From assembly GCF_964355755.1 (NCBI RefSeq), contig NC_092675.1, positions 23,290,412-23,354,411 on the forward strand: a stretch of DNA of 64,000 nucleotides. The letters run 5' to 3'. Position numbers and translations under genes: made by a program. The notes under the pieces were generated by a model that was given only the letters and a program-made list of their open reading frames with translations, did not search any database and was not told where the DNA came from. This stretch comes from Antedon mediterranea. Lineage: Eukaryota > Echinodermata > Crinoidea > Comatulida > Antedonidae. Below are positions 17,022 through 60,600 of the stretch, piece after piece. Numbering within the stretch: position 1 is the first letter of the stretch; each line of letters begins with the position of its first letter.

Positions 17022-17871
17022 ATGGAGTCATTGGTGCCGTACATAATACCATTCGACGAATTAGAGTTAGTAAAACGTAATATTGGAAGTGCTGGTGCAA
17101 CGTCGGTAATACACAAGGCATTATGGAAAACAAGAGAAAATCTTCCAGTAGTAATAAAGATCTACACTAAACACCCGTGCCAAAAAGAAGTCGAGATTCT
17201 TCGAAAACTGGATCACATAAATATCATCAAGTTTTATGGAATTGTGAATGGGTTGGCGAGTGGTATTGTTATCGAATTTGCTCCAGGTGGTGATCTATTT
17301 ACGTTTTTGGCTTCAAAGCGTGAAGAGAAGGTAAGATTATCGAAAACAAAGTTCTCTAAATGGTGTTTAGACATCGCATTTGCTATACAGTATCTTCACA
17401 AGCGACACATTACGCATAAAGATATCAAATCACTGAATGTTCTTATATTCAGCAAAGATAATGTTCACGAGGAAAATGACGATTCGCTAAGTTATTTGAA
17501 AATATGCGACTTTGGAATTTCAAAAGAAACCACCATTACTGAATCAATTATCACCAGTTATGGTGGATGCTCCAAACCATGGGCAGCTCCTGAAGTTATT
17601 AAGGATCCTCGAATTGTTTCCCAAAAGTCGGATATTTACTCTTTATGTATTGTTATTTGGGAACTTTGGACTTGCCAAGAACCTTGGTCTGAGTTGGATT
17701 ATGATATTGAAAAGAGGATAAAGGGAATTTCTCTAGAAATTCCTTCAGACTTTCCAGAATTATTGAAACCAATGATGACAAAATGTTGGCAGACTGAGAG
17801 ATGTAGACGATGTGAAATTGGTGATGTAATCTCGTTCTTCAAACGTCAAATGTCTGAATGGAATATCGATG
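17022..17871 (+). CDS. Exon 1: TKL-like protein kinase domain
   Basis: A whole kinase domain in one exon. Visible landmarks, numbered from the ATG at 17022: VVIK lysine K46, helix C glutamate E56 in KEVEIL, HKD with D124, K126 and N129 in HKDIKSLNV, DFG at 153-155, and APE as AAPE near 178-181. The HRD arginine is Lys. The glycine loop is degenerate (GSAGATSV), keeping only the first of three glycines. All catalytic residues needed for phosphotransfer are present, so activity is plausible. The general pattern (YGIV, CDFGISK, WAAPEVI, IWELWT) is closest to mixed-lineage/ZAK-like TKL kinases. Upstream in-frame codons carry no ATG, so 17022 is the start. The exon ends in phase 1 at a GTAGGT donor; reading through gives a stop a few codons later. 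Confidence 0.85.
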
Positions 17872-20800
17872 GTAGGTTTTTATTTTAGATTCAAGTGCAT
17901 TTCACGTGCAATACTGATAAACATCTTCTAAGGTATGGTGTATTTGATATAATGTGCCCGACAGCTTCAAATATACACATGTACGTGACCAACTAAAACA
18001 TATCTTTTTGAATAATTTTATTAACATTCATTTAATTTGCATTCGAAAAAAGAGGTCAATGTGTCCACTCAACCTCTGCAACAAACAATAGCCGAATTAA
18101 GAAAATATTCAAAAGACAAACTGATTTTTTTATATTTATAATGTTTACAGTTATAAACGATAAAACTGTCGATAATGAATAGAAACGTTTACCTATCTTA
18201 TCACTGAAGTATGAAATTGCTCTATAACCTATATATATTGTGTTACATCCGGGAACAATGTGCAAAACAGTATAATCATAATTAATACGATTTACAACCT
18301 TATTTTATTTTAGACCATCGGGTAAATCTACCAGAAACTAAACACACAGACAATACTGGACATGGAATTATTTCTGATGAAATGGGTAGAATATGTGAGG
18401 CTGATGGCAAGGAAGACCTGTATCAGTCTACTAGTAGTAATCTGAAAGATCCAGTCCAATCAATAGCAATCAACGACAACAATCCTATTGGAAAGTCTTC
18501 GGAAATACAAAACATATCGAATGAGATTTCAGAAAGCATCCACACAGCAAATAATGAACATGTCATCATTTATAATGAAATAGGTAAGGACGAGGGTGGT
18601 GTTGAGGAAGATGTGTACCAATCTAACACTATTAGTAGTGATGTGAAAGAATCAGTGCAATTACCTGAAATCGAGGGAAAGCATTCTATTACGAAATCAT
18701 CGAAAATACAAGAGATATCCAGTGAGTTGTCTTTAATCAGTGTCTTACCTAAATCTGACAAAGCAGACAAGGAAACTGAACGTTCTACAGAAAGCACCGA
18801 AGAAATTAAGGAAAAATACTTATCAGAAATTGGAAGTGATAATGCTGACATAATTAAACCACACGATGAAGCAACACAACATCAGAATTATGAACAGCAA
18901 TCAACCGAGGTTACTGCCGATAAGTCTAATACATTTGAAGGTGGTCGTAATGTAGCTTATATTATCAAACGCTTTGAAAGTTTGGATGCGTTAGATGGCA
19001 GTGAGAAAACAACAACATGTACTACTAGCAATGGAAACAAAGATTCCATATATGATAGTAAGTTTACATTTTATTGGAAAATATATGACGATTAGAAACT
19101 GTTCTTGACTGGGTACCGTATTATTTAAATACATTATTATTTTTGACATTCATAATAATACAGAATACATTAAAGAACACTGCGAGACTAAAGAAAGTGT
19201 ATCCTAAACTTCTCTTTTAAAAAGGTATGCATGACATCCGACTATTATATAATGACTTCATATTATGTTATTAAGTCCAATAGATAACATTCTTCATTCT
19301 ATTTTTTTTTTCATTTCCTGTTTCTCAACGTGATAATGTTTATTATTTTGTTTTATTTGTAAAATGGTATGGTATTTAATCCGTTTGTGCTCAGCGGATT
19401 TTTTTTACTCGCCGCATAAATGTCGAATATAGATAAACTAATTTGTTAAAAAGACAAAGCAAACCACTCATGAGTTTAAAATAATAAACCGATTATAATA
19501 TTACCCGATGAAAACACATTGATATATGAACCATTTTAACTTGTTGTTACATTTTTAATTCTTTCATCTAACGTGTTTTAATATTGTAATAATAATAATT
19601 AATTTTAGAAGACCGACCACGTACCCTCGACATTGATAAAGAAGAAGACGTGTAAGTTTGAATACTACTTTTAAACAAATTATAATATTTACTCAAGATA
19701 ACTATAATCATCAGCGCCTTTCACCCCTGGACAACTTGCTGATTATCCTCTAGAATTAGCAAGTCAAATTCCCACTAGCATCATTCTTACAAATGAAAGA
19801 GGCAGGACTGGTGTAAGAGTGGACATGAGAAGAAAAGTTATAAAAAATATTGAGTAGGGATGATGTACATACAATTTAAAATACTTAAATGAATGATTCC
19901 AGCTGAATCACGGTTTGTTTATTTACTAAAATAGAAAAATGCAATATACAGTGTCTGTAGGCCTACGAAAAAACGTTTAGTTATTTTACAACGATGTTTA
20001 TAGAAAAGGTTCGAAAATGTGCACTGATTTTCATTTATGTGAAACAATATTGGTGGTTCGCTAACACTAATTACAAATGCTCTCGTTTTATGCTCCAGAT
20101 ATCCAGATCTTGTGTTATACCAAAATCTCATCTCACCAGTCCCGACGATTGCGTATTACTATGGTAAGTTAATGTCTTGGCAGGCATCCAGTTGATCTTT
20201 TTTTGGCTATGTTAGTAGTATGCCCTTTCTGTTTCGGTAGTCAGAAAAGACTAAAAGCAATCATGCTCTCCATTTGCTGTTGTTTCTTTCTTAAATAAAA
20301 AATAAAACAAATTAAATCATTTACTGCAATTTAGAAAATGAAATAATCATACTTGCCATATTTACAATTTGAATGTCCAAAAAGATGAAAAAGAAGGAAG
20401 ACTTTTCCTTTTTAAGATACTAAGTACAAGCATATTTACTTTTCTAGACATGCACTATTTAGTTTAGTTAAATAGAATTGTTATTGTGTCAATATGTTTA
20501 TAAAATTCAATCAAACAGATAGCATATTGATTCATAGGTTTTACTATAGATCTAATCGAACTTTGAGCTTATGATTTTCCTCGTACAGAAAGTCATAAAA
20601 CGCATAGATGCAGAAACCACCGTTTTTATTTAAACAATTGCATATTATCTGATCAAGCAAAGAATCCTCAAATCGTTAAGTCTGCCTTTGTAGAGGCATG
20701 TTAAGGTAGACAACAATATAGACAAACGTTTCAAACTAACCTTTTTCTATTGAAATACTATAATTGTATTTCTGTATAGCACTTTCATTTTACCGTTCTT

Positions 20801-23800
20801 TCTTTCTACAACAATATTGCATCAGTTCAATACCAATACACATTATCAAATTTACAATTAAAAAATGAACTCTTGTTTTTTTCCATTTATACTGCTATTA
20901 TATTTTTATTTTCTATTGTTGTAGCAAATGTTGTTTTAATTTTCCTAAGGATGCTTATTTGCATAAGGATGATGTGCTTTGCCTTTCTTTGTTGATGTGT
21001 AAAAAAAAGTGAAAACCACAACATATAAATTTACGTAAAAGAAAATTCAGTAAATCGCATTAGATTCTTCAATAGTATACATAGTTGGTGTATATTCTCA
21101 GTACTGATAATGATGAAAAACAGTACACTAATACGAGGGTGCTTCGTAGTATCTGCCTTTAAAATAACTATTTCTAACTACCGAAATTTGGTACACAGTT
21201 CAAGTACATCGTAATTGTAAACGGGAAATAATTGTTTTATGAATTACAATTCTATCATCTAGACCCCTATAGATTAAAATTACTACAGTAATTACAGACG
21301 AAGCTTAATTCCAAAAACGCACACACATTTTGAATTTGCTGTTAATAAATTTATGATATTACTACTGTAGATGATACATTGTTTCATTTGTTTTGTAGAC
21401 GATGTTGAACTAACAGATTTACGACCAACGGGTCAACCAGGCAAGGTTAGTATAACTGTTTGAGTATTTCCAGGGAAATTCCGGTTATTATCCACATCCT
21501 GGATCATAATAACAATTTTAGGTGACTGGGCTGAATACTTGCTTTCAGAATGTCTGTGAAGTTAATTACGCCTACTGTAGCTCCTAGTTCCTTATTCAAT
21601 TTAAAGTGAAAGTTACCGCTTTCTAATACCTGATGTCTCTCAGCTAATACTGATCAATACTGAAATACTTTATTTGTCACCATCATGATAGAAATTACAA
21701 ATATTCTTTTTGAAGATTAGCAAATGTTAGTACGATAACGAACATAAAAATAAAATATAAAACAAAATGAATAACACATACGGCATACACACATTGCGCA
21801 AACCTAAGTTGTAAAATGTAAAAGTAAGATAACAACGCATAAAAGGCTGAACACTTTAACAATTTAGATACACTAGATGGTACGCTCGCTTCGCTCGCGT
21901 ACCATCTAGGTCGTGCCCACATATGGTTATCGAATACATAGTAATTTCAGCGTAAAAAAACTGGCGATTTCAAAATGTAGGCCTACGTACCGCATGACTA
22001 TAAAACATTTATTTATGTATTTATGTAGTCAACCAAAATTAGCACCGTGCGAATTACTTCCAAAAGAGAAACTTCTCACAAAATGAGTCCAAATGTTTAA
22101 ACAAACCCAATTTGTATTTTGTATCTAACATTATTGAGGGTTGGGTTTTTTTTTTAATAGGCCTATAAATAACATAACACTAAATAGAGTAAAACATTTC
22201 CGATTTAATAACTGTTAAAATTGTCACTGTCATAGTGGATTGAAATAGTAAAGTACATGTAACGATACACCACCACGACGTTTATATTTTTTTGTAATTA
22301 TTAATTAATACAAACGTTGTGAAGCAACTGTCAGTAATAAAGTATTATATTATTATGTGTTTATAATCTAAAAGTAGGGGCTACCCACACTCACAGTAAT
22401 AAAGTTTATTAGTATATTTGTTTATATTATAATAAACAGTAGGCCTACCAACGCACACAATAAGAAATTTGCGATTCAAATGGCTATCAAAAGTGGTTAA
22501 TACCTATTTACAGTATTGTATAGCTTTACAATACTATTTATGTTTATTCTCAAAGGGCCCATAAATTGACCTACTTGTGTTAAATCATGGAGGTATGCAA
22601 GCATGGTTAAACCAAATAATTTGGAATGTTCCATTCATCGCAAATCAATACATTTGTATAAACGTATATTAAATCTATCAAAATAGTATTTTTTAAAGAA
22701 AATCGGCCTGTCTTCAACATTATGATACTCTACTCGAGCTGTTCAACCGGTTTTCAGCTATTAAAAGCAATTATCGTAGGAGGAGATAGGAAAATGCGAA
22801 GTATCCTCGTATTATTGTGTACAGGTATTTTTCATGAGGACATCCATTAGACAGTGTATACCACGATCGGAAAACACCCCTATTTGGGGCAAATGGTTGA
22901 ACCTAAATTCGTTTTAATCGTCAATAACTAATTATCTAACTAAATTTAATTAGTAAACAGGGTTACATCAGGTGGTTAAAATCAGTACCGAGATTATAAC
23001 CAACTTTATATACCATCGAGTACACATTCTAGAAATAACGCGCGATTTACCGAATTTTGCCCTTACGTAAATTTATATATAGATAGATTATAGGTCCCAA
23101 TAAAGTTAAAATAAACTATTCAAACACTGCAACAACACTAAACAAGTTAGAGCAATAATTGACCACAACATTATTATGCTTTCAAAATGTTTGTAAAGTT
23201 AGTAGTTATTAAACATTATACTTTTACGCACTTCGAAATACTTTGAAGGGAAAGTGATCCGATGTTTCAAAATACAAATGATCAGTTTTTGTTATCACTT
23301 ATTGCATGATATTGACAGGAGTTATCCAAGTTGTATTTGCATATTGAAGAAAGTCACAAGGACCTAGAACTTGTTAAAGAAGAATTCATAGAGAAGGATC
23401 GATTGAACCAGATTTTAAATAAAGGAGAAATAAGGCATCTACTGATTAACACATCTGATGTGGAAAGTATAATGTCCAGGTAAGGTGATAACTTCTTAGT
23501 TTGTTAAAGATATTATAGATAATCAATAAATGGGTTTTCAAAAACGAGTTTGACCTTTTTTGACACAACGTATTAAACTATCAACCAAGATTATACAGTC
23601 GTAAATCGTTGCAGCTTTTTGGTCTTTTCTTTGCATTCATATTTATAATATAATAATAATGATTGTATTTTCATATGAATATTTAACTCTGATGGCTAAA
23701 TAAAAAAATCAAATTTGTAGTCAACATTTAATGGCGCACTATATTACGTACATCTAAATAAAAAAATAAAATATTGATCATATCACGAAATAGAATATAT

Positions 23801-26800
23801 AAAGAATATTATTGTTTTAAATTGGTAATACTAACTTGACTGTTAAAATATAGTAATATAAGGCATATATTCTTATTTATATTTTCATTTGAATATAGAT
23901 TTCATTTGTGGTTCGGCAAGTGTAAATATCATGTCCCAGCTGTGTGTAAATTGATAAGCAACATTGTTGAGGCTGACTATCTGCAACCGATCATAAACTT
24001 TGCTATATATTCACACCTTCAAATGAATATGCTGAAATTAATAAGGTATCGTATTATTATATATTTGATATAAACCCAGTTTAAAAGCAAAGAAGAAAGT
24101 GACTGTCAATCATCAGCTGCAAATGAGCGAGTGCATCCAACTAATGACGTCATACATTTTATAGTATAAATAACTGTGTTCATTGTATAGAATTTAATAT
24201 TTATCAATCTCATTTAATTGGCTGATTCATTTTTTAATCTAAAGTTAAAGAGTTCCTTCAGTATATATTAAAATGCATACTTTCAGAGCGGTTGGTTCAT
24301 TCTTATGAATATAATTTAATGAATTTTAATAATTCAATTCAGTAGCACAAAAATAAAACAAAACACATTTTTTACATACTGAATCAATTTAGTAGGTACA
24401 TATGTATGTATATGTATTTATTTTCATTTAGTGCATTCATTTATTCTAGACAACGTTGTCTCGATTTTGACGAAAAGCTGGACAAAATGCAACAGCAAGG
24501 AAGTGATGACATAACCTATCAACTCTCATTTAAACAGCTTCAATCAATCTTCTTAAAGCAAGCAAATTGGTTAAAGAAATGCTATGGTATACTGAAGGTA
24601 ATTACAGAGTTGTTTAAATCTACATTGTATTTCTAAATGTTTTACAAGACGATACATTAGTTTTTTTAACTTCTGTTCTCCACATTTTCATACACATGTC
24701 TTTTATTATATAGACCTATTTCTTCTTTAAAGTTTTATTATTCTTTTAACAGTAATAGTATTTTTACAAATGTTTAAAAAAAATTGTATTTATAAGAGTT
24801 TCTACGATGCTCTCGTTGTTGAGAAAACGATAGAAAACGAATCATCAATTCAAGATTTAAAGGAAGCCTGTTGCAAACTAGATACACTCATTAAGAACTG
24901 CGCGGAACGAGAAACTCGTATCACTGGAGATATCCAAGAACACAGTACGTCCGTGTTGCAAAAACTACGCTTTGACTCAGTGAGTAACGAAACCATGTCA
25001 CAGGTAAATATTTGCTTCTGTTTTGACACGATATTTTGAAAACATTATAATATTACATACATTAATTCATTTTCTGTAAATTCATTTAAAATACATGAAT
25101 AATAAACAATAGAATATTTAAAAAATACGTATTTTCTAGTGTATCAAACTGTTCCACCACCAGAACTAGGAGCGAGTCTGCCTCCCTTGTTCTTTAGGTA
25201 CGGTAAACTGCGCTGCGCATTTGACTCCGCTCGGCCAATAGAATATAGATCTATAAACTCGATTTTTAATTAGGACAATGTTTATTTTTTTGGAAGAAGT
25301 CGATGGTAAGCGATGAAAGTTGGATAAAGAAGAAAGGTACTATATGTATAATAGAGGAAATAAAACATGGCAAAAGACACTCTAAAATAGAAAAGAAAGA
25401 ATGTACTATGATTGCCTTTGTGTCAACAGTACTTATTGCAGAGGTTAACGGGTGAGTTTATGTAAGATAAATGTAAATAAAACAATTCTGTAGGCCTCTG
25501 CCTGAGTTACTGAGTAAACATCGATTCCTCGACTACTCATACTTTGTTTAGCATACATTAGTCATTGTATTTGTGACAAAAAGTGAGCCTCTAAAGGATA
25601 CAAGCCTCGTACTTCCACAGTTAAAATTCAGTTTAAGCACCAAAAATACCTCGTTAAATTGTAATAACATTTACTAATAGTAGGTGTATCATCCTAATTA
25701 TAATTTGAATGTTAGACATTGAATCATCCAACAACTTTAAAGTTGATTTCGACTGCTCCCTGACAATACACCAATATCTAAAGATATGAGAGAAAGTAAA
25801 ATGTATTAAACTACTGTATAAAATATACAATATAATAGTGTACAAATTAGTAACATCATGGCATTACTTTAATGGAGTATCAAATAGTTTTAAGTTTCTG
25901 TAAAATAAACGAAACGCAAATACCATCTTTAGTAGGTGGCTGTAAAGGCTATAGGCCTAGGTACAACTACTTATGTCATCATTTAAAACGTGTTGTTACC
26001 TACGGCCTGATTACGCTTAATTTATGTTTCTATTTTTTATAAATGTACTACCACTTTCATTTTTTATTTAGTATATACTTCCTGCTTCGACGAATACCCA
26101 GATTTAAATGTAAATGTAAATAATCGATGCCACCATTAATAATAGTGGTTAATATTGAGTGTTTTATTGTTTATTTATTGTACTATACATTTCAGAGAGT
26201 ATTACAAAGTTATTGATTGTATTAGCAAGAAGGACATTACATTCCAACGTCAAGACTATTTGAATGTCGCCTACATGGGAAATGAAGTATTTTCACTTAC
26301 CAAGTTCAACCCAATTACACGAGCAGCTATCAAAGAATATGAAATTACACTACAGGACAGGTTAGAAGTCATCATGTATATTTCAATATTATAATAACAT
26401 TCTGTTTATTCACTCCAGATTTTTATCTTAACTAATATGTATATAATAATGTTGTATTTTTCATCCGAAAAAAATGGTGGGACAATAAACATTTCGATAT
26501 ATTGTATAATCTATTGTTTTAGTGGAGAATTTCAAGAATGGTCCAAAGTATTGGCGTTTTCCGAGGAAGAAAAATCTTATCAAGATACAGAATATAGTAA
26601 GTCTTTTAACAAGAATAATGGGTGTGTGCAATGACTTAACCACCCCCTTCATCTATCTTCTATGATTATCTTCTATTCAACAGAAAACCCACTGTTTATA
26701 TTAAAAGCCAACTCGTAGCAAGCAAAATTGATATTTATATGCCACAGAAGACCCTTTCTAATTAAAGTTTAGTGTTCTTGACTCTTTATCAAACCAGATA

Positions 26801-29800
26801 TTGATGACATTAATACAAATATTAATTATTGATATCACTAATGTAAAATGAATATTAGTAATAATAATCCAGAGTTGTAGATTTTCTGCTGGTTAATTTG
26901 AATTCGAAAAAAAAAAATTTAAAACAGATGTCGAATTCAAATTTGGGCTAATACAATTCAATTCAATTCAATTCAATTCAATTCAATTCTATTAGGTTAC
27001 TGTTATTATATTTGTCATTTATAGTCACTCCACTTGAAATACTGAACTCACCAGACGTTGAATCTGTGTATGAAGACTGCTACAGGCCAATCGGTAAAGT
27101 ATTGAAAATGACATAAGGAAACTTAATATAATAACTAAATGCACATTATATTTCATTAAAATGTATAGCGATGTATTGCTGGTCACTAGTACATTTTTAA
27201 AAAAGTTTCCATCTCAGCATGATATTTGTATTGGACTATTTTTATTCATAGTGGTTCATTTAAAAATTATGTTTTGCTCTTGTTTTCAAAGCACGACAGA
27301 ACAGCATATATGAAAATATTGAAGCGATACAAGTAAGTTCACTTATTTTTTCCTACTTTTTTTCTACCACCATGTTGTTAGGCTTAACGTTAATTATGAC
27401 CACCTCTACTGCTATTATTTTTGTATGCCAGAATAGTTAATTCTTACATAGGTTCTCAACAAATTCTTGCCAGAATTACATTTGAAACCTTAACTAAAGT
27501 ATGGTATAGTATATGTTTTCCAAAATTAACGAAATATGAAATTTTTATTATTTCCATAATTATCTGAGCAAAAGTTTAATTACTGTACTGACTGTGAAAC
27601 ATTTCACTCAACTGAAACCATTATTATGCTGTTGTTAGGCTTAACGTTAATAATGAGCTTACATCTTAAAAGGTGCTGTCGGGTATTATCACCCTAAATA
27701 AGAAGACAATTGAAAGTCTAAGGAAGCTTAAGGAATTGTACATTGATAATGTCGTTTTAAGTTCGATTATTGGTAAAGGAGAAAAACATCATTTATACCT
27801 AAATGTCATGGAAGTGCAAGACGCTATTGAAAGGTAAAACCAATTTTTCTAAATCTGAAATAGTAACGAATTTGTTGGCTTACAAGATAGATGCCAAATC
27901 ATATCTGGAGCAATTGTCATTTACATAGACTCCTATATATTGTGTGTGTTGATGTTTAAAATGTGATTGTCACATTGAGTAATTGAAAGTAATTTATACA
28001 TTTATTGACTAAAACTTTTTAGGAAACAAAACGATTTAGTCAAAGTGGTGATCAAAGCATTTGTCATGGAAAACAAACAGTTCGCAGTATAGTGTATTTC
28101 ATGTCGCTAGACAAAATAATGATAAAAAAAAACGGCTGATTGTTACGGGGGAACCTATGTGGTACATGTACTTATACTGTATTAATGCATCTTTTTCTCT
28201 TTTATTCCAGCTTCAACCAAAAGCTAGAAAACAGCGGGACTTATGACAGTTACCAATTATTTACTGAATTACGAAAGCATTTAGAGGAGGATAGGTTTCA
28301 TCCGATAATTGATTATGAAGCCCATATGTGTTTCCAGCGAAATATGATTAGGTTCCAAAGGTAGGCTTAACCACTTCTTATACCATCCTTATTTTGCAAT
28401 ACTATTTACTTTAGCCGGCACATTTCCTATATTCTTTTTATTCTTTGTAATACATTAGTATTATTCAGGAAGTTATTCCGTTCTATGTTCCGCAGCACTG
28501 TGTTGTCAATAGCTGTGATGAATTCCGATATTGTAACTATAGCTATTTAAAAACCCCGGTTAACTCTATTATAATAAAACAATTTTTATATAATGTTGCA
28601 GCTTAATGTAATTGTTATATACAATGTATTTTAAAAATAATACTTTTACAATTATGATGAACCCTTTTAAACTTTACTACCAAATCAATGTTTTTGACAA
28701 TCAATAAAAATAAAAGCTAGAATCGTCATTATTTATTTATCATATTTTATTATTTGTAATGTTGATGCTGTTGTTTTACATCAGAAAACACAATACAGCA
28801 TTTCACCAAGTTCTTGGAAACTTAGAGCGAGATCCTCAAACAGAAATGCGTGTATCTGAGATTGATCTACAAACACGCCTCTCAAAACCTGCTGATTGGC
28901 TGTCGAGGCTTTACCACAAATTAAAGGTATATTATAATATACTCAGAGATTAGATGATGATCAACATTTTGTAAAACATAACATGATGAAACTGTAAAAA
29001 AAAATTGGTAACTATTTGCAAGCTGTAATTCTACATGATATGTGAAATGGTCATTTTTTTCTGTCGTTACAGTCTGTCGTCATCAATTATATATATATAC
29101 GTTGCTTTAGTACAGAAGGTTACCTAATCTCAGTAATAAACGTATAGCGTCAAAATTTAAGAATTTGAATTGAAGTTATTTTTCTTTTCTCTACATTTCT
29201 GTCGTTGTAGACTTTAGAAGGTACAATTAAAATCGATCCTGATCATCAAGAATCCTTCCACCGGCTCAATGCCGAAACTTTACACATGTTACAGCAACTC
29301 ATACATCGTGAACAAGATCTCAAAACTAAAGTCGAATCAGCTTCTAAGGACCATATCACAACTGTGCTCCTCAGTTTACCAATTCCTTCAGTGCATGCGC
29401 CAGGATTAATACAAGTAAAGTAGCACTTCCAATTTGCAAAATCTAGTGCCGGTATCAGACTGTTATAGGTCATTTTGGTTTAATCTTACTTACAACTGTT
29501 ATAAGTACTTTTCTTATTTTATTTTAATTTTAACTTAGACAATTTATACCTAATGGGCTATAACAGTCACGCAGTATACCAACATTTCTATACCATCAGT
29601 AATTACGTATATGAATTTAAAATTATAATAATAGGTAAATAAATTAATAGATAAAAAAATATATGGATAAATGTTGAGCGCATAATTTGTCAAAACTCTA
29701 TTCACTTAACATTAACGTAACAAGTTTTCCATAATAAACATATACAAACATTGGATTGGATATAATATTGATGCCAATATTTAAAAATTAAAATTATAAT

Positions 29801-31734
29801 AATATAATTATAATTATAGAAGCTTTCCAACATACAAGATGACTGGATAACGAAACAGGGCATTGTAACAATGTTTTGGAGGCGTAGTAAATCGCTGGCA
29901 ACAGTAAAAAGAAGGTATCATTCAAACAAAATCAACCTCTATGTATCCAAATCAGCCGTTATTTTAACTGATTCAAAAGTTAATACCGGTCTTGGCGATA
30001 CCAAAAAGTAAGTATAATTTTGGTAATTTATAACAATCATTTTAGTTTCCACGTTGGCTCCCTTTTCTGAGTTTCGTTCTTTTTAAAATTTCTTCTCATT
30101 CAATCTAATTATTGTCCGTACCTGTATGGAACGAGCATACAGATATTGTCCCTACGACATTTTTGTTATTGTTTTGTTACTCACTTTTACCAAAAATTTG
30201 ATCGAAAAAATGATTCACATGAAAACAAATATAATTGCAACAACGTAGCAGCTATTTATAAATATACTGGATAGCAATTTGACATTTCCGTCACGATTTG
30301 ACAATAAAATATTTTACAGACCTGTACTTTGTCAGTGCTATGATCGTAACTACGTTGATGTGGAAATACTCGATACAAAATCACGAGAGATGTGGATGCC
30401 TGAAAGAGAATGTGTGTTTAAGCTCTGGATATACGAAAAACAAGACGGTGACTACACACAAATTGAGTATCTTCTTGGTCTGAATCCGGACCAACCAAAG
30501 TAAGTGTGTACTGAAACTAGAATATCTTAGTGAGATGTTGTATTTATTTGTTTGAAATCTGTTAAGTTCCTTTTAAAACATATAATTAAAATTCTTACTT
30601 AAAAAAAATTTACTTTTCGTTGTAATAGAAACTCCTAAATGTTTTTTAGGCCCAGAAAAGTCTCAATCACGAATAAAAGACACAAACCTTTATTTTTACA
30701 ATGTTTAATATCCTCCATTATTCTGTACTATGGTTTGGTCTGAAATATCTACGACAGAGCTTGTGATTTTGTGATTCTGATACATATATATCAAAAAGCT
30801 CCTCTTCTACACCTTTAAACCCCTGTCTGATTGTCATTGTTATAGTTATCATGTTGATTTGTATGACAATTTCAGAGAGGATTTAAATGAATGGAAGGCG
30901 TTGCTTGTTGTAGCAACAGGTGAATCAGGAATTTTCGACGACTATAGTGAGTCAAATTTTATCACATAATTATACATATTTCTCGATATGTATAATTATA
31001 TTTGTATTAAATTAATTTATATTTTGTTGTTTATTTTATTTACTGCTATTGCCGCTAAATGCTACCATATTGGATTCTAGTTGGATGAATCATAATACAA
31101 ACATACCGGTACCCAATTTAAAAAAAGAGAATTTGTTTCCATGAATTCGCTTAAATACCATATTTAATATTCGTCTGTGTTAACAATGTTTAATTCTATT
31201 CTTAGGGCGACCAAGCCATATTGTCTCTGAGTCTTTTGCGACAGATAGGGAAGATGAACTACATTTAGAAGTCAATGACTTTGTAGAGATTTTGCAAATG
31301 GAATATGCTATGGACAAAGGTATAACAAATAGGAAGAGGTTTAACAAAATCAGGCCTATAATTAGTATTTCATTTTTAGACGAACACATGTTATAGCATA
31401 AAGTTAGGGTGTCTAGAAAACTAAGACTTAAGATATCTTAGTTTTCTAGATCTAGAAAACTAAGATATCATCTTAGGTCTTAGTTTTCTAGATCTTAGTT
31501 TTCTAGACACCCTTAAAGTTAAACTAGATTGGTAAACTGTATCTCTGAACTACGGAGTTACCGCATTACAATTCGTTTTTTTTTTCTTCAGCTTGGGTTA
31601 AAGGAAGGCGGATAAAAGATGAGCAGATAGGATGGTTTCCACGTAAAATCCTTGGTCATGAAATTGACAGCGAGTACAGCAGAGGACAAGAAGTAAAGCT
31701 ACGGTACAAACGCGAAAGAGAAAGCAAAACTTAA
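17022..31734 (+). CDS. Protein kinase-(DH-PH)2-SH3 protein, about 1422 aa, 23 coding exons
   Basis: Coding exons: 17022-17871, 18314-19057, 19609-19651, 20099-20163, 21399-21445, 23319-23479, 23899-24045, 24450-24597, 24797-25003, 25297-25451, 26196-26360, 26523-26596, 27025-27093, 27292-27332, 27673-27833, 28211-28360, 28785-28926, 29211-29414, 29820-30007, 30320-30499, 30876-30946, 31206-31319, 31592-31734. Total 4269 bp in one open frame; every junction is GT-AG with matching phase. Order: TKL-like kinase (residues about 10-280), Ser/Glu-rich repeat tail (284-531), short Tyr-containing linker, DH1 (584-804), PH1 (805-935), linker, DH2 (973-1191), PH2 (1192-1337), SH3 (about 1352-1400). The DH-PH-SH3 order and the SH3 sequence resemble ephexin-type Rho guanine nucleotide exchange factors. 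Inferred role: cytoplasmic kinase/GEF or scaffold acting on Rho GTPases. Two adjacent genes (kinase; GEF) cannot be excluded without cDNA. Confidence 0.8.
18314..19057 (+). CDS. Exon 2: low-complexity Ser/Glu/Asn-rich tail with a duplicated segment
   Basis: Enters in phase 1 after TTTTAG and leaves in phase 1 at GTAAGT. It encodes about 248 residues with no recognised domain and predicted disorder. Two halves are related: EDLYQSTSSNLKDPVQS...KSSEIQNISNEISE is echoed by EDVYQSNTISSDVKESVQ...KSSKIQEISSELSL about 70 residues later. Each copy carries a Y-Q-S tyrosine site in an acidic setting, a plausible phosphorylation site for docking. Short linker exons 3-5 (19609-21445) follow, with further tyrosines (LYQN, YYYDD). 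Confidence 0.7.
22790..22975 (-). repeat. Dispersed repeat family member, minus strand, in kinase-GEF intron 5
   Basis: Reverse complement of the family at 4553-4790, with an extra CCCCTATTTGGGG block. Confidence 0.65.
23319..25003 (+). CDS. Exons 6-9: first RhoGEF (DH) domain, divergent
   Basis: Four exons of 161, 147, 148 and 207 bp with phases 0-2-2-0-0 encode about 221 residues. The mostly helical, Leu/Lys-rich pattern follows the DH fold: an opening ELSKLYLHIEESHKDL helix, a middle block with HVPAVCKLISN, and a late LQSIFLKQANWLKKCYGIL helix standing where DH domains have the conserved LxxxLLKPxQRLxRY motif. The usual Pro-x-Gln-Arg is replaced, so exchange activity is doubtful. A truncated SINE lies in the intron that follows. 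Confidence 0.65.
25145..25250 (-). mobile_element. Truncated tRNA-derived SINE in kinase-GEF intron 9
   Basis: The reverse complement shows GGCCGAGCGG, CCGTACCTAAAGA and GACTCGCTCCTAGTTCTGG, matching the head of the SINE at 11325. Confidence 0.75.
25297..26596 (+). CDS. Exons 10-12: first PH domain
   Basis: Exons of 155, 165 and 74 bp, phases 0-2-2-1, encode about 131 residues. The opening DESWIKKKGTICII matches the start of the second PH (DDWITKQGIVTMF). The last exon holds FQEWSKVLAF, the expected C-terminal PH helix with its invariant Trp. The acceptor at 25295-25296 was chosen over TAG at 25271-25273 because only it keeps the frame and aligns with PH2. Confidence 0.65.
26953..26992. repeat. 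ATTCA microsatellite
   Basis: About eight perfect ATTCA units in the intron before linker exon 13. Confidence 0.9.
27025..27332 (+). CDS. Exons 13-14: inter-module linker with YxN-type tyrosine motif
   Basis: Two small exons (69 and 41 bp, phases 1-1-0) join PH1 to DH2. The encoded peptide contains SVYEDCYRP and SIYENIEAI. Y-E-N is a classical Grb2-type SH2 docking pattern (established knowledge); its use here is inference. Confidence 0.6.
27673..29414 (+). CDS. Exons 15-18: second RhoGEF (DH) domain
   Basis: Exons of 161, 150, 142 and 204 bp with the same phase series 0-2-2-0-0 as DH1 (161, 147, 148, 207). About 219 residues. The segment IDLQTRLSKPADWLSRLYHKL aligns with the DH LLKPxQRLxRY helix; Lys-Pro is kept but Gln-Arg is Asp-Trp. 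A TAG acceptor at 28021 opens a short alternative reading that ends at TAG near 28091; skipping it, exon 15 joins 28211 in frame and matches DH1 (EVQDAIESFNQKL versus DVESIMSRFHLWF). Confidence 0.7.
29820..30946 (+). CDS. Exons 19-21: second PH domain
   Basis: Exons of 188, 180 and 71 bp, phases 0-2-2-1, the same series as PH1. Starts DDWITKQGIVTMFWRR, continues through a beta-rich core (YVDVEILDTKS, CVFKLWIYEK), and ends with the helix EDLNEWKALLVVA carrying the invariant PH tryptophan. PH domains next to DH domains usually assist membrane recruitment and exchange. Confidence 0.75.
31206..31734 (+). CDS. Exons 22-23: C-terminal SH3 domain and stop
   Basis: EDELHLEVNDFVEILQ, AWVKGRR and EQIGWFPRKILGHEI are the standard SH3 blocks (acidic RT-loop part, WxxG, GWFP). 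The form resembles the C-terminal SH3 of ephexin-type GEFs. A basic tail (RYKRERESKT) precedes TAA at 31732-31734. The intron between the two exons carries a MITE at 31407-31512. Confidence 0.85.
31407..31512. mobile_element. 106-bp hairpin MITE with 9-bp flanking repeat
   Basis: Termini GGGTGTCTAGAAAACTAAGA and its complement; flanks ATAAAGTTA and TTAAAGTTA (8 of 9 matching). The interior repeats CTTAGTTTTCTAGA. Termini and target length resemble the element at 3753-4185. It lies in the last intron of the kinase-GEF gene. Confidence 0.8.
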
Positions 31735-31880
31735 CCAAAGCCATGAAGCTATCATAACAACTGTAGATTAATATCTGCATTATTGTTATAACTGTTGTTC
31801 TGTCAGGATGTGTATTACTCGATTCTTCAATATCCACCAACCTCTAAATCCGTAACCTCTTCATGCATCTTCATAATAAG

Positions 31881-31886
31881 AATAAA
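31881..31886 (+). terminator. Polyadenylation signal AATAAA of the kinase-GEF gene
   Basis: First canonical AATAAA after the stop codon, about 150 bp downstream, in an AT-rich context. Cleavage site not visible. Confidence 0.5.
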
Positions 31887-31899
31887 ATAAATGATCGAA

Positions 31900-32739
31900 C
31901 TTCTTATGATTGGTATGATATCTGTATCTATATTTTTTAAACATCTCTGAGTCGTAACATGCCATCGAATAGAGGACACAATTCAGTGGTCTGATGACAT
32001 AATTCTCAAGGAACCACATGCACATAGAGCGCATGTACTAGGACTATAATTCAGGAAAATTGTAATCGGTCATTAAGTTAGTGTCCATAGATGGTTATCG
32101 AATACTGAATGACGTTCTGGCGTAAAACAACCAGACCCTTTTTCCTTCATTATGTAATTATTTATATTTTATTCATTTCTGAAATAATAATACGAAAAAT
32201 CATGAGACTACAATTGTATCTATAACTGACTAAAAGATAAAAATAGCATATACATGCAGTTTCGTGCATTTACGTTTATAAGATTAGATATTTGTAAATA
32301 AAACTATCAATGAACTACAGGTATTTATTTAATTATAGTCTTGTACTGTATTGGCGGTAGAACTAAGACTAGACTATAATGAATTATACTTTAACAGCAG
32401 TTTGAGGATCTCGACGGCCAGTCGGGTAGGTTACGCATATTATAGCTAGAACGTTAATGCTTTCTACCTGTTATCAGAGATATCACTGACAAGTACAGTA
32501 AAATTATAATCATTACTTAGACTTTGTGTCTCTCAATTAAACACAGCTTATACAATTCTATTTGGCTATCCATGAACAACACAAATTAATAGGTGGTGCT
32601 ATACACATTTCAACTTATCGAAACACTTCTGGATGAATCCTTGCTGGAATACTTCTCCATCGTCAGTACTTGAAATAATGCACCTCTTTATTTTTAAAAC
32701 TACATTTCTCCAATATTTTTTTCGAATTCCTGGGATCCG
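31900..32739. other. Intergenic downstream of the kinase-GEF gene, no gene seen
   Basis: A short block near 32090 (ATGGTTATCGAATAC) is shared with 21921, a sign of a dispersed repeat. Nothing else is supported. Confidence 0.5.
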
Positions 32740-57600: not shown

Positions 57601-60600
57601 TCGAGTTGCAAGGTAGTTCACTGTGGGGTTATGTACAAGTTTTAAAAGATGGTCAATTGAAGTATATATGCAATGATTACTGGGACATTGAAGATGGACG
57701 TGTTGTCTGTACACAATTAGGTCAGTATAATGATGTATTTTTTGTAATCATCTACAAAACTTTAATAGGCGAACAAAGACACGGTCACACTAATAATAAA
57801 TTAAATCATATTATAATATTAATATTATATATAATAATGATGACAGTTATAATATTAGGTATTGCGACCATTGATGGTTGATATATTAACCAACCTGTCA
57901 GTTGGTTATACAGGAACCAAGTGAAAGATTGTAGTAGTCAGCAGTGAAGAAACTGCAGATACTGTTTAGTGTCGCTAGACATAATACTTTGTACGACAAT
58001 CGAGTGGCATAACTATAATACTGCAAGTTTCCATCCCACTGTAGAATAACGATTAACGTTCTCAATGTTTGAGTATCAAGTACAATTTACTTCAGATTGA
58101 CATCTAATGAGTATTGTTATATTATTAAGCTTCATATATATTTGCTGTTATTCAAAATGGTAATTAGAGAACCTGTTTTGTATTGTATTGATGCCACAAT
58201 TGACTATTGTTTTACCGGTACGTGTTTGTAGAAATAACATTGCTTTAATGACTAGAATTATAATTCTAGGGATGTCATAGGATTATGTTCAGAGACATCA
58301 TTTTAAATAGTATTTGCCTTTAGGTCTTGGTGATGTATTTACGGTTAGTGGAGAGACATACCCTACAGAAAATACTATACCAGATGGGTTCTTGTGCGAT
58401 GGAACAGAGAGTACGCTAACCGAGTGTCAACGTACATCAGATCTACCAGGTGACGAAAATACACGATGCAATGCAGCTTACGTATCATGTGGTCCAAAGG
58501 GTAAGTTAAATGTGTTGAGAGGACATAAAAGTTATACATTCTAATACATTAACGCTAGGCTGAAATCTAGAAAGACATCTTGAAATATAATTATTTTGAT
58601 ATGAAAAGTCATTTCGCGCCCAACTCAGGAACATACATGATCATGCGCAGAATGTTAGCTGCATATAGTGTCCCATCTCTACTCTTTCTGCATTGAGTAG
58701 GCCTATGCTTCATGAATGTATGTCGACTTCTTAGAACTAGGAGGAAATTCTCAATTTGAAATGTCCTACAAAAAAATGGTTTAATCATGTCAGTAAACAA
58801 AATGTTTTAAGTCTATTATCTCAATTATAGATTCTAAAGTGTACGATTGGAAAGAAATCGGCTGTTTTCAAGATAACAATAACCGAATACTTCCTGACTT
58901 AAAGTGCGATGAATCCACAACCGAGATATGTAGACATTGCTTAAATGACACCGGCCAGTATTTCTGTGCTGATTACCACGGAATGACTGTGGATCTATGT
59001 CTACAAGTATGCTGTGGTTATGGTTATACGTACGCAGGCTTACAGAATGGAGATCAATGCTTCTGTGGACACGAATCTGCTGACTATAGTAGATATGGGG
59101 AGAAGCCATCAACTGACTGCTCTTCCGAGTGTGAAGGCAACGCTGGGCAGGATTGTGGCGGTATATTCAACATGAAAGTCTACGAATGTAGTAAGTTAGA
59201 ACATACTATACAATTATTTCCTTATTTGGTCAGATGTTTTCCTCGGAGTGTTTTCTTGTTGTAACGTCATTCATTGATTATTCGCGTCAACAATAACCAA
59301 TTTTATTTGACGTATAGATTTTTGTATCTTATACTAATTGATATGGTATAATGTTATTATTTCCTAGTTTATCCTGATGCTAGCACAATACAAGATATAT
59401 CAACTGAATCATCGATTCCCACTTCTAGTGTATCACCAACCTCTAAAAGAGACACAAATACACCGGAAAATAATGTAACACCACCGATGACTACGGAATA
59501 CTCAAGTAGTGTAACAGTTTCAAAATCAAGCGAGCCATCTTCTTCTTCAACTTATCTTACTTCCACTAAATCAAACGAAGTATCTATGACTAACGGTGTA
59601 ACAGTCCCAACTTCAAGTAAAGAACCAACCAAATCCTCTGTCACATCATCTTCTACGGAAGATTCAAGTCGTATAACAGTTTCAAAATCAAACGAAGAAA
59701 CAAGCAAACCATTCTCTACTTTAACTTCTTCTATTTCTACTCAATCAAAAGTGTCTATGATCAGTGACGTTACAATGACAATATCAAGTAAGGAACCAAC
59801 CAAATCCTCTGTCACATCATCTTCTACGGAAGATTCAAGTCGTATAACAGTTTCAAGATCAAACGAAGAAACAAGCAAACCATTCTCTACTTTAACTTCT
59901 TCTATTTCTACTCAATCAAAAGTGTCTATGATCAGTGACGTTACAATGACAATATCAAGTAAGGAACCAACCAAATCCTCCGTCACACCACCTTACACTA
60001 TTACTAAATCAACGAAAGGTCCTGTATCTTCTTCAGTTACAAGCACACGTCAGTATTCAACAAGCGACGGAGATAAATTTGTAAAAACGACTATCGCGTC
60101 ATCAACTGGTGACGCAATGATGTCACGTAACCCATCTGAGTATTCAACATCAATGAGTTCAGTGAGAAACACGGATGGACCAAGAACATCTGAACAATCT
60201 TTATCATCGAATCTACCAAGCAATAATCCTACTACATCATTTAACAAGTCCCTGACAACATCTAAGGTGCAAGAAACACCGGTCGTTCTCACAAGTAAGT
60301 TACAAACGGTACACTACACTATTTTCTTACTACCGTCTTTGCATCAGAGATTATAATGAAAGATAACTGATGTCTTTGTTATCATTTGCTATTGGTATTT
60401 GGTATCGGGAGGTTGTATCCTGTTTTCTTTCTATAATTTAATTGATAATGATATAAAACATTATAGCATCAATATGATTATCTGTGATGATACTGTATAA
60501 TGTACGGTAATATGTTACTGTTTCGTCATTACAGCAAAGAAAAACAACGAAAACCCCGTTCCAAAGGACAGCTTAACGTCTAACGAAGAAGATGATTCAT

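Follow-up and report, generated by a model that had tools for sequence, protein, structure and literature searches.

A 64,000-nucleotide (nt) stretch of the genome of the crinoid Antedon mediterranea (here, the window; C6:23290412-23354411 of a 354-Mb assembly in 18 contigs) contains a candidate gene that an earlier note, made from the sequence alone, had described as a protein kinase joined to two Rho guanine nucleotide exchange factor (RhoGEF) modules and an SH3 domain. Both the exon count and the limits given in that note were borne out: 23 exons on the forward strand, spanning 17022-31734, join into a single frame of 1422 aa, uninterrupted by stop codons, and each of the 22 introns begins with GT and ends with AG. 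The predicted protein begins with a kinase domain (exon 1), continues with a linker (exons 2-5) and two DH-PH units (exons 6-12 and 15-21, with exons 13-14 between them), and ends with an SH3 domain (exons 22-23) (Table 1).

The frame stays open across the 248 codons of exon 2 (P ∼4e-9 from the exon's own base composition). A 22-exon model, with 19715-19810 as the third exon, also kept the frame, yet no counterpart of this segment was seen in the paralogues described below, and it was dropped for the three small exons 3-5. One of the proteins scanned with Pfam still included 19715-19810 and the other lacked exons 3-4; the domains were unaffected. An inverted and repeated TCTTAGTTTTCTAGA-like motif was seen by eye in the last intron (31400-31515).

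When the genome was searched with the kinase, 59 matches were obtained, of which five, all on C9, are closely related (46-53% identity). A search with the GEF part (the query lacked exons 3-4) gave, beyond the window, matches on C9 only, the one exception being C11, where the SH3 part was weakly matched (E 0.015). Three C9 loci, PA, PC and PD, have the same layout as the window copy, and the gene is not the single oddity that had been supposed. In all four complete GEF arrays found, a clade kinase lies in front in the same order and on the same strand; conversely, four of the six clade kinases carry the GEF part. The window copy, PA and PD are free of stops over 1202 to 1422 codons. Judged by these sequences, the family numbers four or more genes in this genome; the count is a lower bound, obtained with 53 of 64 first-look candidates scored.

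The C9 cluster is not uniform. Exon 2 of PC has one in-frame TAA in a frame that is otherwise open (1258 codons), and PC is possibly a pseudogene, an allele or an assembly error; the joined protein would not be made from it unless splicing differs or the locus is misassembled. PC also contains a ∼280-bp block with exon 3 sequence, in three tandem copies 5′ of exon 4 (by eye). Over 7 to 8 kb downstream of the PB1 and PB2 kinases, neither the search nor a profile scan detected a GEF match, so that a clade kinase may occur without the GEF part. PB1 is flanked by two arrays of a 24-bp repeat (L003 1-852 and 6349-7705, C9; 35 and 56 copies with 96-97% matches) that translate as (NMYTVCIL)n. A partial GEF remnant is present at C9:20958150-20958570.

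The earlier note treated the exons as one gene, and the paralogues point the same way. PA, PC and PD share the order, the strand and linker exons of the window copy, and 20 (PA), 18 (PC) and 18 (PD) of the 22 window introns match in place (≤3 columns) and phase, compared with at most 5 matches in 2000 random placements for each paralogue. This null is generous, because the paralogue exons were sought by alignment to the window protein and the linker exons were placed by hand, by phase and motif. The unmatched introns have an equal phase at a shifted place in PA and PC (all) and in PD (two of four); the other two in PD correspond to a missing exon pair. The kinase exon ends with a phase 1 donor in 4/4 copies, and the codons past this donor differ among the four copies and are common only to PB1 and PB2. 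Counterparts of exon 3 are 43 nt (PA) and 40 nt (PC) long (phase 1-2), those of exon 4 are 65 nt (PA) and 41 nt (PC) (phase 2-1, TPVP/SPVP in common), and those of exon 5 are 38 nt (PA), 38 nt (PC) and 35 nt (PD) (phase 1-0, TGK/TGQ in common). Exons 3 and 4 were not found in PD, and the loss of this pair is frame-neutral. The small linker exons returned by automatic spliced alignment of the paralogues were spurious, and were replaced by hand once the DNA had been read.

The alternative is that two adjacent genes, one for the kinase (exon 1, perhaps with exon 2) and one for a separate tandem GEF, were duplicated together. The wide 19-23 kb gap would fit two genes, yet it holds 17 poly(A)-like hexamers vs. 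16 by a rough composition estimate, and PA and PC contain counterparts of linker exons 3-5, as PD does of exon 5, with unchanged phases. The stop in PC, the PB1 and PB2 kinases without a GEF match, and the frame of exon 2, which if read past its donor ends at 19093-19095, are likewise on the side of two genes; nevertheless, in the window copy, PA and PD alike, no junction breaks the frame. A separate GEF protein could begin at Met codons that PA and PC have in linker exons 3 and 4, though at places that the two copies do not share. No such start exists in window exons 3-5 or in PD exon 5: the window protein lacks Met between aa 307 (exon 2) and aa 635 (inside DH1), and PD lacks one between aa 333 (exon 2) and aa 402 (inside DH1). 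Taken together, the comparison makes one gene very probable and a co-duplicated pair highly improbable.

Table 1. Exons of the window gene (positions in the window) and C9 loci with the same layout. Ranges of PA, PC and PD stop at the last aligned codon; their frames continue for 5 to 10 codons to a stop.
Feature	Position	Strand	Content
Exon 1	17022-17871	+	Start codon and entire ZAK/MLK-like kinase domain; phase 1 donor
Exon 2	18314-19057	+	Long linker, acidic, Ser-rich; phase 1-1; same phases in PA, PC, PD
Exon 3	19609-19651	+	Linker, 43 nt, phase 1-2; counterparts in PA and PC
Exon 4	20099-20163	+	Linker, 65 nt, phase 2-1, LISPVP motif; counterparts in PA and PC
Exon 5	21399-21445	+	Linker, 47 nt, phase 1-0, PTG motif; counterparts in PA, PC, PD
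Exons 6-12, DH-PH unit 1	23319-23479, 23899-24045, 24450-24597, 24797-25003, 25297-25451, 26196-26360, 26523-26596	+	Homologous to unit 2
Exons 13-14, inter-unit linker	27025-27093, 27292-27332	+	Tyr motifs VYED, IYEN
Exons 15-21, DH-PH unit 2	27673-27833, 28211-28360, 28785-28926, 29211-29414, 29820-30007, 30320-30499, 30876-30946	+	ARHGEF16 profile match
Exons 22-23, SH3 and stop codon	31206-31319, 31592-31734	+	Pfam SH3_1 2.5e-6
AATAAA, possible poly(A) signal 3′ of the stop	31881-31886	+	Weak: 2 hexamers in 31735-32400 vs. ∼2.4 expected
PA	C9:20883113-20898006		Same-strand kinase and complete GEF part; 23 exons, no internal stop
PC (L005/L006)	C9:20945757-20955495		Same-strand kinase and complete GEF part; stop in exon 2
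PD	C9:20974052-20986882		Same-strand kinase and complete GEF part; 21 exons, no internal stop

The window kinase matches Pfam PF07714 (6.9e-42). A profile built from the six clade members was compared with the PDB: among the best 60 of 69 matches, MAP3K20 (ZAK) leads at 1.9e-47, followed by an EGFR-labelled entry (1.2e-43), MAP3K12, CTR1, MLK1 (MAP3K9) and then mostly tyrosine kinases. By profile rather than by tree, the kinase is of TKL type and nearest to ZAK/MAP3K20, in agreement with the N-terminal TKL-type kinase first proposed. K46, E56, D134, N139 and D163 are invariant in 6/6 clade kinases, and the window kinase reads DFG, with HKD replacing HRD; PB2 has an altered catalytic loop and DVG for DFG. 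A Lys lies two positions past the catalytic Asp, and if, as we assume, this residue is a mark of Ser/Thr kinases, it suggests Ser/Thr specificity.

Unit 1 and unit 2 of the window protein are 25% identical over 226 columns and have seven identical exon phases (0-2, 2-2, 2-0, 0-0, 0-2, 2-2, 2-1). Since the units are homologous and all seven phases are kept, an internal duplication of DH-PH is indicated, and since each kind of unit shows 45-53% identity between the window and C9, it would predate the split between them. The Tyr motifs VYED and IYEN of exons 13-14 are not present in PA, PC and PD.

A profile of the eight units, compared with solved structures, matched ARHGEF16 (1.8e-14), the rest being weak (E 0.3 or more). 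With unit 2 plus SH3, all four PDB matches at E 0.001 were ARHGEF16 (best, 7.6e-18), collinear across DH, PH and SH3 (profile 3-414 of 441). The unit 1 profile alone found ARHGEF16 at 6.9e-4, in two pieces of which neither is better than 0.2. The SH3 domain matches Pfam PF00018 (SH3_1) and the ARHGEF16 SH3 (1x6b, 7.3e-5). From these profile searches we infer that the C-terminal part is ephexin-derived, for unit 1 largely via its homology to unit 2, which upholds the earlier view of an ephexin-like DH-PH-SH3 with an extra DH-PH. The Pfam RhoGEF model (gathering cut-off, 27.6 bits) reached window unit 2 at 4e-4 and 21.1 bits, under the cut-off, and gave no match in the other 7/8 units, window unit 1 included. 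The window's own units were also absent from the 46 places found in a genome-wide RhoGEF search, consistent with their divergence. With Pfam, the domain search of the joined product that had been called for was clear for kinase and SH3, but not for RhoGEF, which was established by the profiles against solved structures (weakly for unit 1 alone).

In the available text of PMC5727386, a CR1 (conserved region 1) Glu and a CR3 Lys matter for catalysis, and the DH of Bcr-Abl, with conserved catalytic residues missing and GEF activity undetectable, is called a pseudo-GEF. The corresponding residues were mapped by alignment to ARHGEF16 and between units, a weak alignment made without a structure. On this map, unit 2 has Asn in place of the CR1 Glu in 4/4 copies, and its basic CR3 position is R in the window and S, C and C in the other copies. 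Unit 1 has the CR3 Lys in 4/4 copies and, at CR1, Ile in the Glu column with a Glu one column on. In place of the Gln-Arg pair that ARHGEF16 has in CR3, 8/8 units have Asn-Trp, Asp-Trp or Glu-Trp. The alpha-6 Asn of unit 1, a position that presumably has a role in exchange, is kept in PA, PC and PD and is Ala in the window. GEF activity is doubtful, because RhoGEF scored under the Pfam cut-off and the exchange residues are mostly missing or displaced; for unit 2, the predicted residue pattern is unfavourable to exchange.

Nonsynonymous to synonymous rate ratios (dN/dS) were taken from the three C9 pairs (PA, PC, PD), in which synonymous divergence (dS) is unsaturated; between the window and C9, synonymous sites are near saturation. 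The ratios were ∼0.37-0.51 for the kinase, ∼0.31-0.60 for the DH-PH units, 0.30-0.48 for SH3, 0.28-0.69 for linker exons 3-5 (on 11 to 39 codons) and ∼0.68-1.1 for linker exon 2, which is under little constraint. These values indicate conserved domains and a fast-evolving linker.

If the family were drifting to pseudogenes, the degeneracy of the DH domains would be loss of function and not a new role. The stop in PC, PB1 and PB2 without a GEF part, the partial GEF remnant, the changed PB2 catalytic loop and a kinase dN/dS that is fairly high for an enzyme fit such a decay. However, three copies (window, PA and PD) still have their long frames, with domain dN/dS <1 in the C9 pairs, and the window copy is still open despite near-saturated synonymous divergence from C9. 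We consider decay of the family very unlikely.

With moderate confidence, we favor a single gene for a Ser/Thr kinase joined to a partly degenerate ephexin-derived module that would give the kinase a scaffold and a sensor. A single frame, linkage and exon phases maintained through deep divergence, and intact catalytic residues of the kinase are seen directly in the sequence. On this model, an N-terminal Ser/Thr kinase of the ZAK/MLK kind, probably active, is followed by a probably disordered linker and by an ephexin-derived DH-PH that appears to have been duplicated in tandem, with the ephexin SH3 retained. The DH-PH-DH-PH-SH3 part would serve the kinase mainly as a regulatory scaffold that binds GTPases or membranes. 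Some exchange activity, albeit weak, or GTPase binding may persist in unit 1, and unit 2 has probably become a pseudo-GEF. In the available text of PMC6406967, ephexins 1 and 3 have an autoinhibitory helix N-terminal to DH, relieved by Tyr phosphorylation, and ephexin4 has SH3-mediated autoinhibition, relieved by Elmo1. By analogy, the SH3 and the linker may lock the protein in a closed state, to be released by a partner or by autophosphorylation. The kinase occupies the place of the ephexin regulatory N-terminus, and kinase, linker and GEF module may regulate each other in one chain.

Several observations weigh against this model. Besides the PC stop, the PB1 and PB2 kinases and the PA and PC Met codons described above, the Gly loop is altered in the window copy (IGSAG vs. 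LGRGS in PA and LGIGS in PC), exon 2 shows the little constraint noted, the residue map depends on a weak alignment, and the shift of the unit 1 CR1 Glu may be an alignment error.

The same parts could also form a working kinase-RhoGEF, in which phosphorylation in cis of the linker or DH relieves an ephexin-type autoinhibition and a Rho GTPase is activated by unit 1, if not by both units. Phosphorylation N-terminal to DH opens ephexins 1 and 3, but as far as the available text goes the ephexin switches are mainly Tyr, with Cdk5 priming (PMC6406967), and the window kinase looks Ser/Thr-specific; a Ser site is reported in ephexin4 (PMC11758948, in part). Unit 1 has its CR3 Lys in 4/4 copies and the alpha-6 Asn in 3/4, and dN/dS of the DH-PH units is ∼0.31-0.60 in the C9 pairs, whereas the CR1 Glu is displaced (unit 1) or replaced (unit 2), the CR3 Gln-Arg pair is lost in 8/8 units, the window unit 1 has Ala for the alpha-6 Asn, and RhoGEF remains under the Pfam cut-off. 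The degraded exchange residues lead us to favor the scaffold and sensor role, and a Rho-exchange switch appears unlikely. For the coupling of phosphorylation to Rho regulation suggested in the earlier note, Rho control by exchange is doubtful on both Pfam and residue grounds.

The kinase is close to ZAK/MAP3K20 and the mixed-lineage kinases (MLK; TKL type) by its best PDB profile match, and differs from them in its HKD. ZAK carries a SAM domain and a leucine zipper; Pfam gave no SAM match in the rest of the window protein, and a leucine zipper was not looked for. Trio and Kalirin, like the window protein, have two DH-PH units, an SH3 and a kinase on one chain, but with spectrin repeats and a C-terminal kinase of CAMK type, whereas the window kinase is N-terminal and no spectrin repeat was matched by Pfam in the window protein. 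Obscurin/UNC-89 also joins RhoGEF and kinase, in a giant Ig protein with C-terminal kinases of another type and order; the window kinase is N-terminal, and no Ig domain was matched by Pfam in the window protein. BCR has C2 and RhoGAP domains and no canonical kinase domain of its own. With the ephexins, the window protein shares the DH-PH-SH3 order and the C-terminal SH3, ARHGEF16/ephexin4 being the sole strong PDB match; it differs by its N-terminal kinase, two DH-PH units, degenerate CR1/CR3 and long acidic linker.

LISK kinases belong, we assume, to the TKL group. The pairing of a TKL kinase with RhoGEF then has a precedent: in the available text of PMC1420674, Dictyostelium has a LISK kinase (DDB0229867) and a STE-group kinase with RhoGEF domains. 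DDB0229867 resembles the window protein in joining kinase and RhoGEF, and differs in that it is an amoeba protein with an IQ motif beside the RhoGEF (same text); the two fusions are likely independent. The two GEF modules of Trio (PMC9372627) and the DH-PH of BCR without conserved catalytic residues, a pseudo-GEF (Bcr-Abl, PMC5727386), are further partial parallels in the text available. In the kinase and RhoGEF literature, searched by title and abstract start, no animal protein of this architecture was seen among the matches listed, which cover part of the open literature. Kinase and RhoGEF on one chain are thus already known; what is new is an N-terminal ZAK-like kinase with a doubled ephexin module, in a family of at least four.

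Other frames were noted near related single-exon kinases elsewhere in the genome. On C1, a related ZAK/MLK-like kinase in a single exon is followed on its own strand, 0.4 kb downstream, by a Death-domain frame (L011 7064-7360, minus strand; Pfam 6.2e-6); the link is one of adjacency only. On C4, two long frames follow a single-exon kinase on the same strand (L012 4310-6556), the first matching Pfam Macro (2e-8), and a Roc-like frame (L014 7525-7830; Pfam 2.5e-4, under the cut-off) lies ∼6 kb downstream of a single-exon kinase. Six similar frames are found downstream of a single-exon kinase on C8 (L010 404-3491, minus strand), the one tested matching Ig V-set (7.4e-9), and weak kinase-like pieces lie downstream of a single-exon kinase in L009. 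Together, these neighbors hint that one kinase exon has been placed before many partner domains.

Farther along the window, an open frame at 59352-60356 (334 aa, Ser/Thr-rich, with internal repeats) adjoins a Cys-rich frame at 58797-59264, and looks like a secreted or surface protein.

A bolder reading, which we regard as speculative and rather unlikely, is that these genes form a new class of animal ZAK-like kinases, in which an ephexin module was captured and doubled into a GTPase-binding, non-exchanging sensor. The state of a Rho-family GTPase would then control the kinase, not the reverse, and the genome would contain a larger set, with this family as one branch, of single-exon ZAK-like kinases standing before different partner domains.

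These data suggest that (i) two modules that are separate in the known ZAK and ephexin pathways are naturally fused here, in a form that is easy to test because four or more genes share it; and (ii) should the doubled GEF module lack catalytic activity, the family would provide an animal case of pseudo-GEF scaffolds, and if the module is active, the protein would be a self-contained phosphorylation-to-Rho switch.

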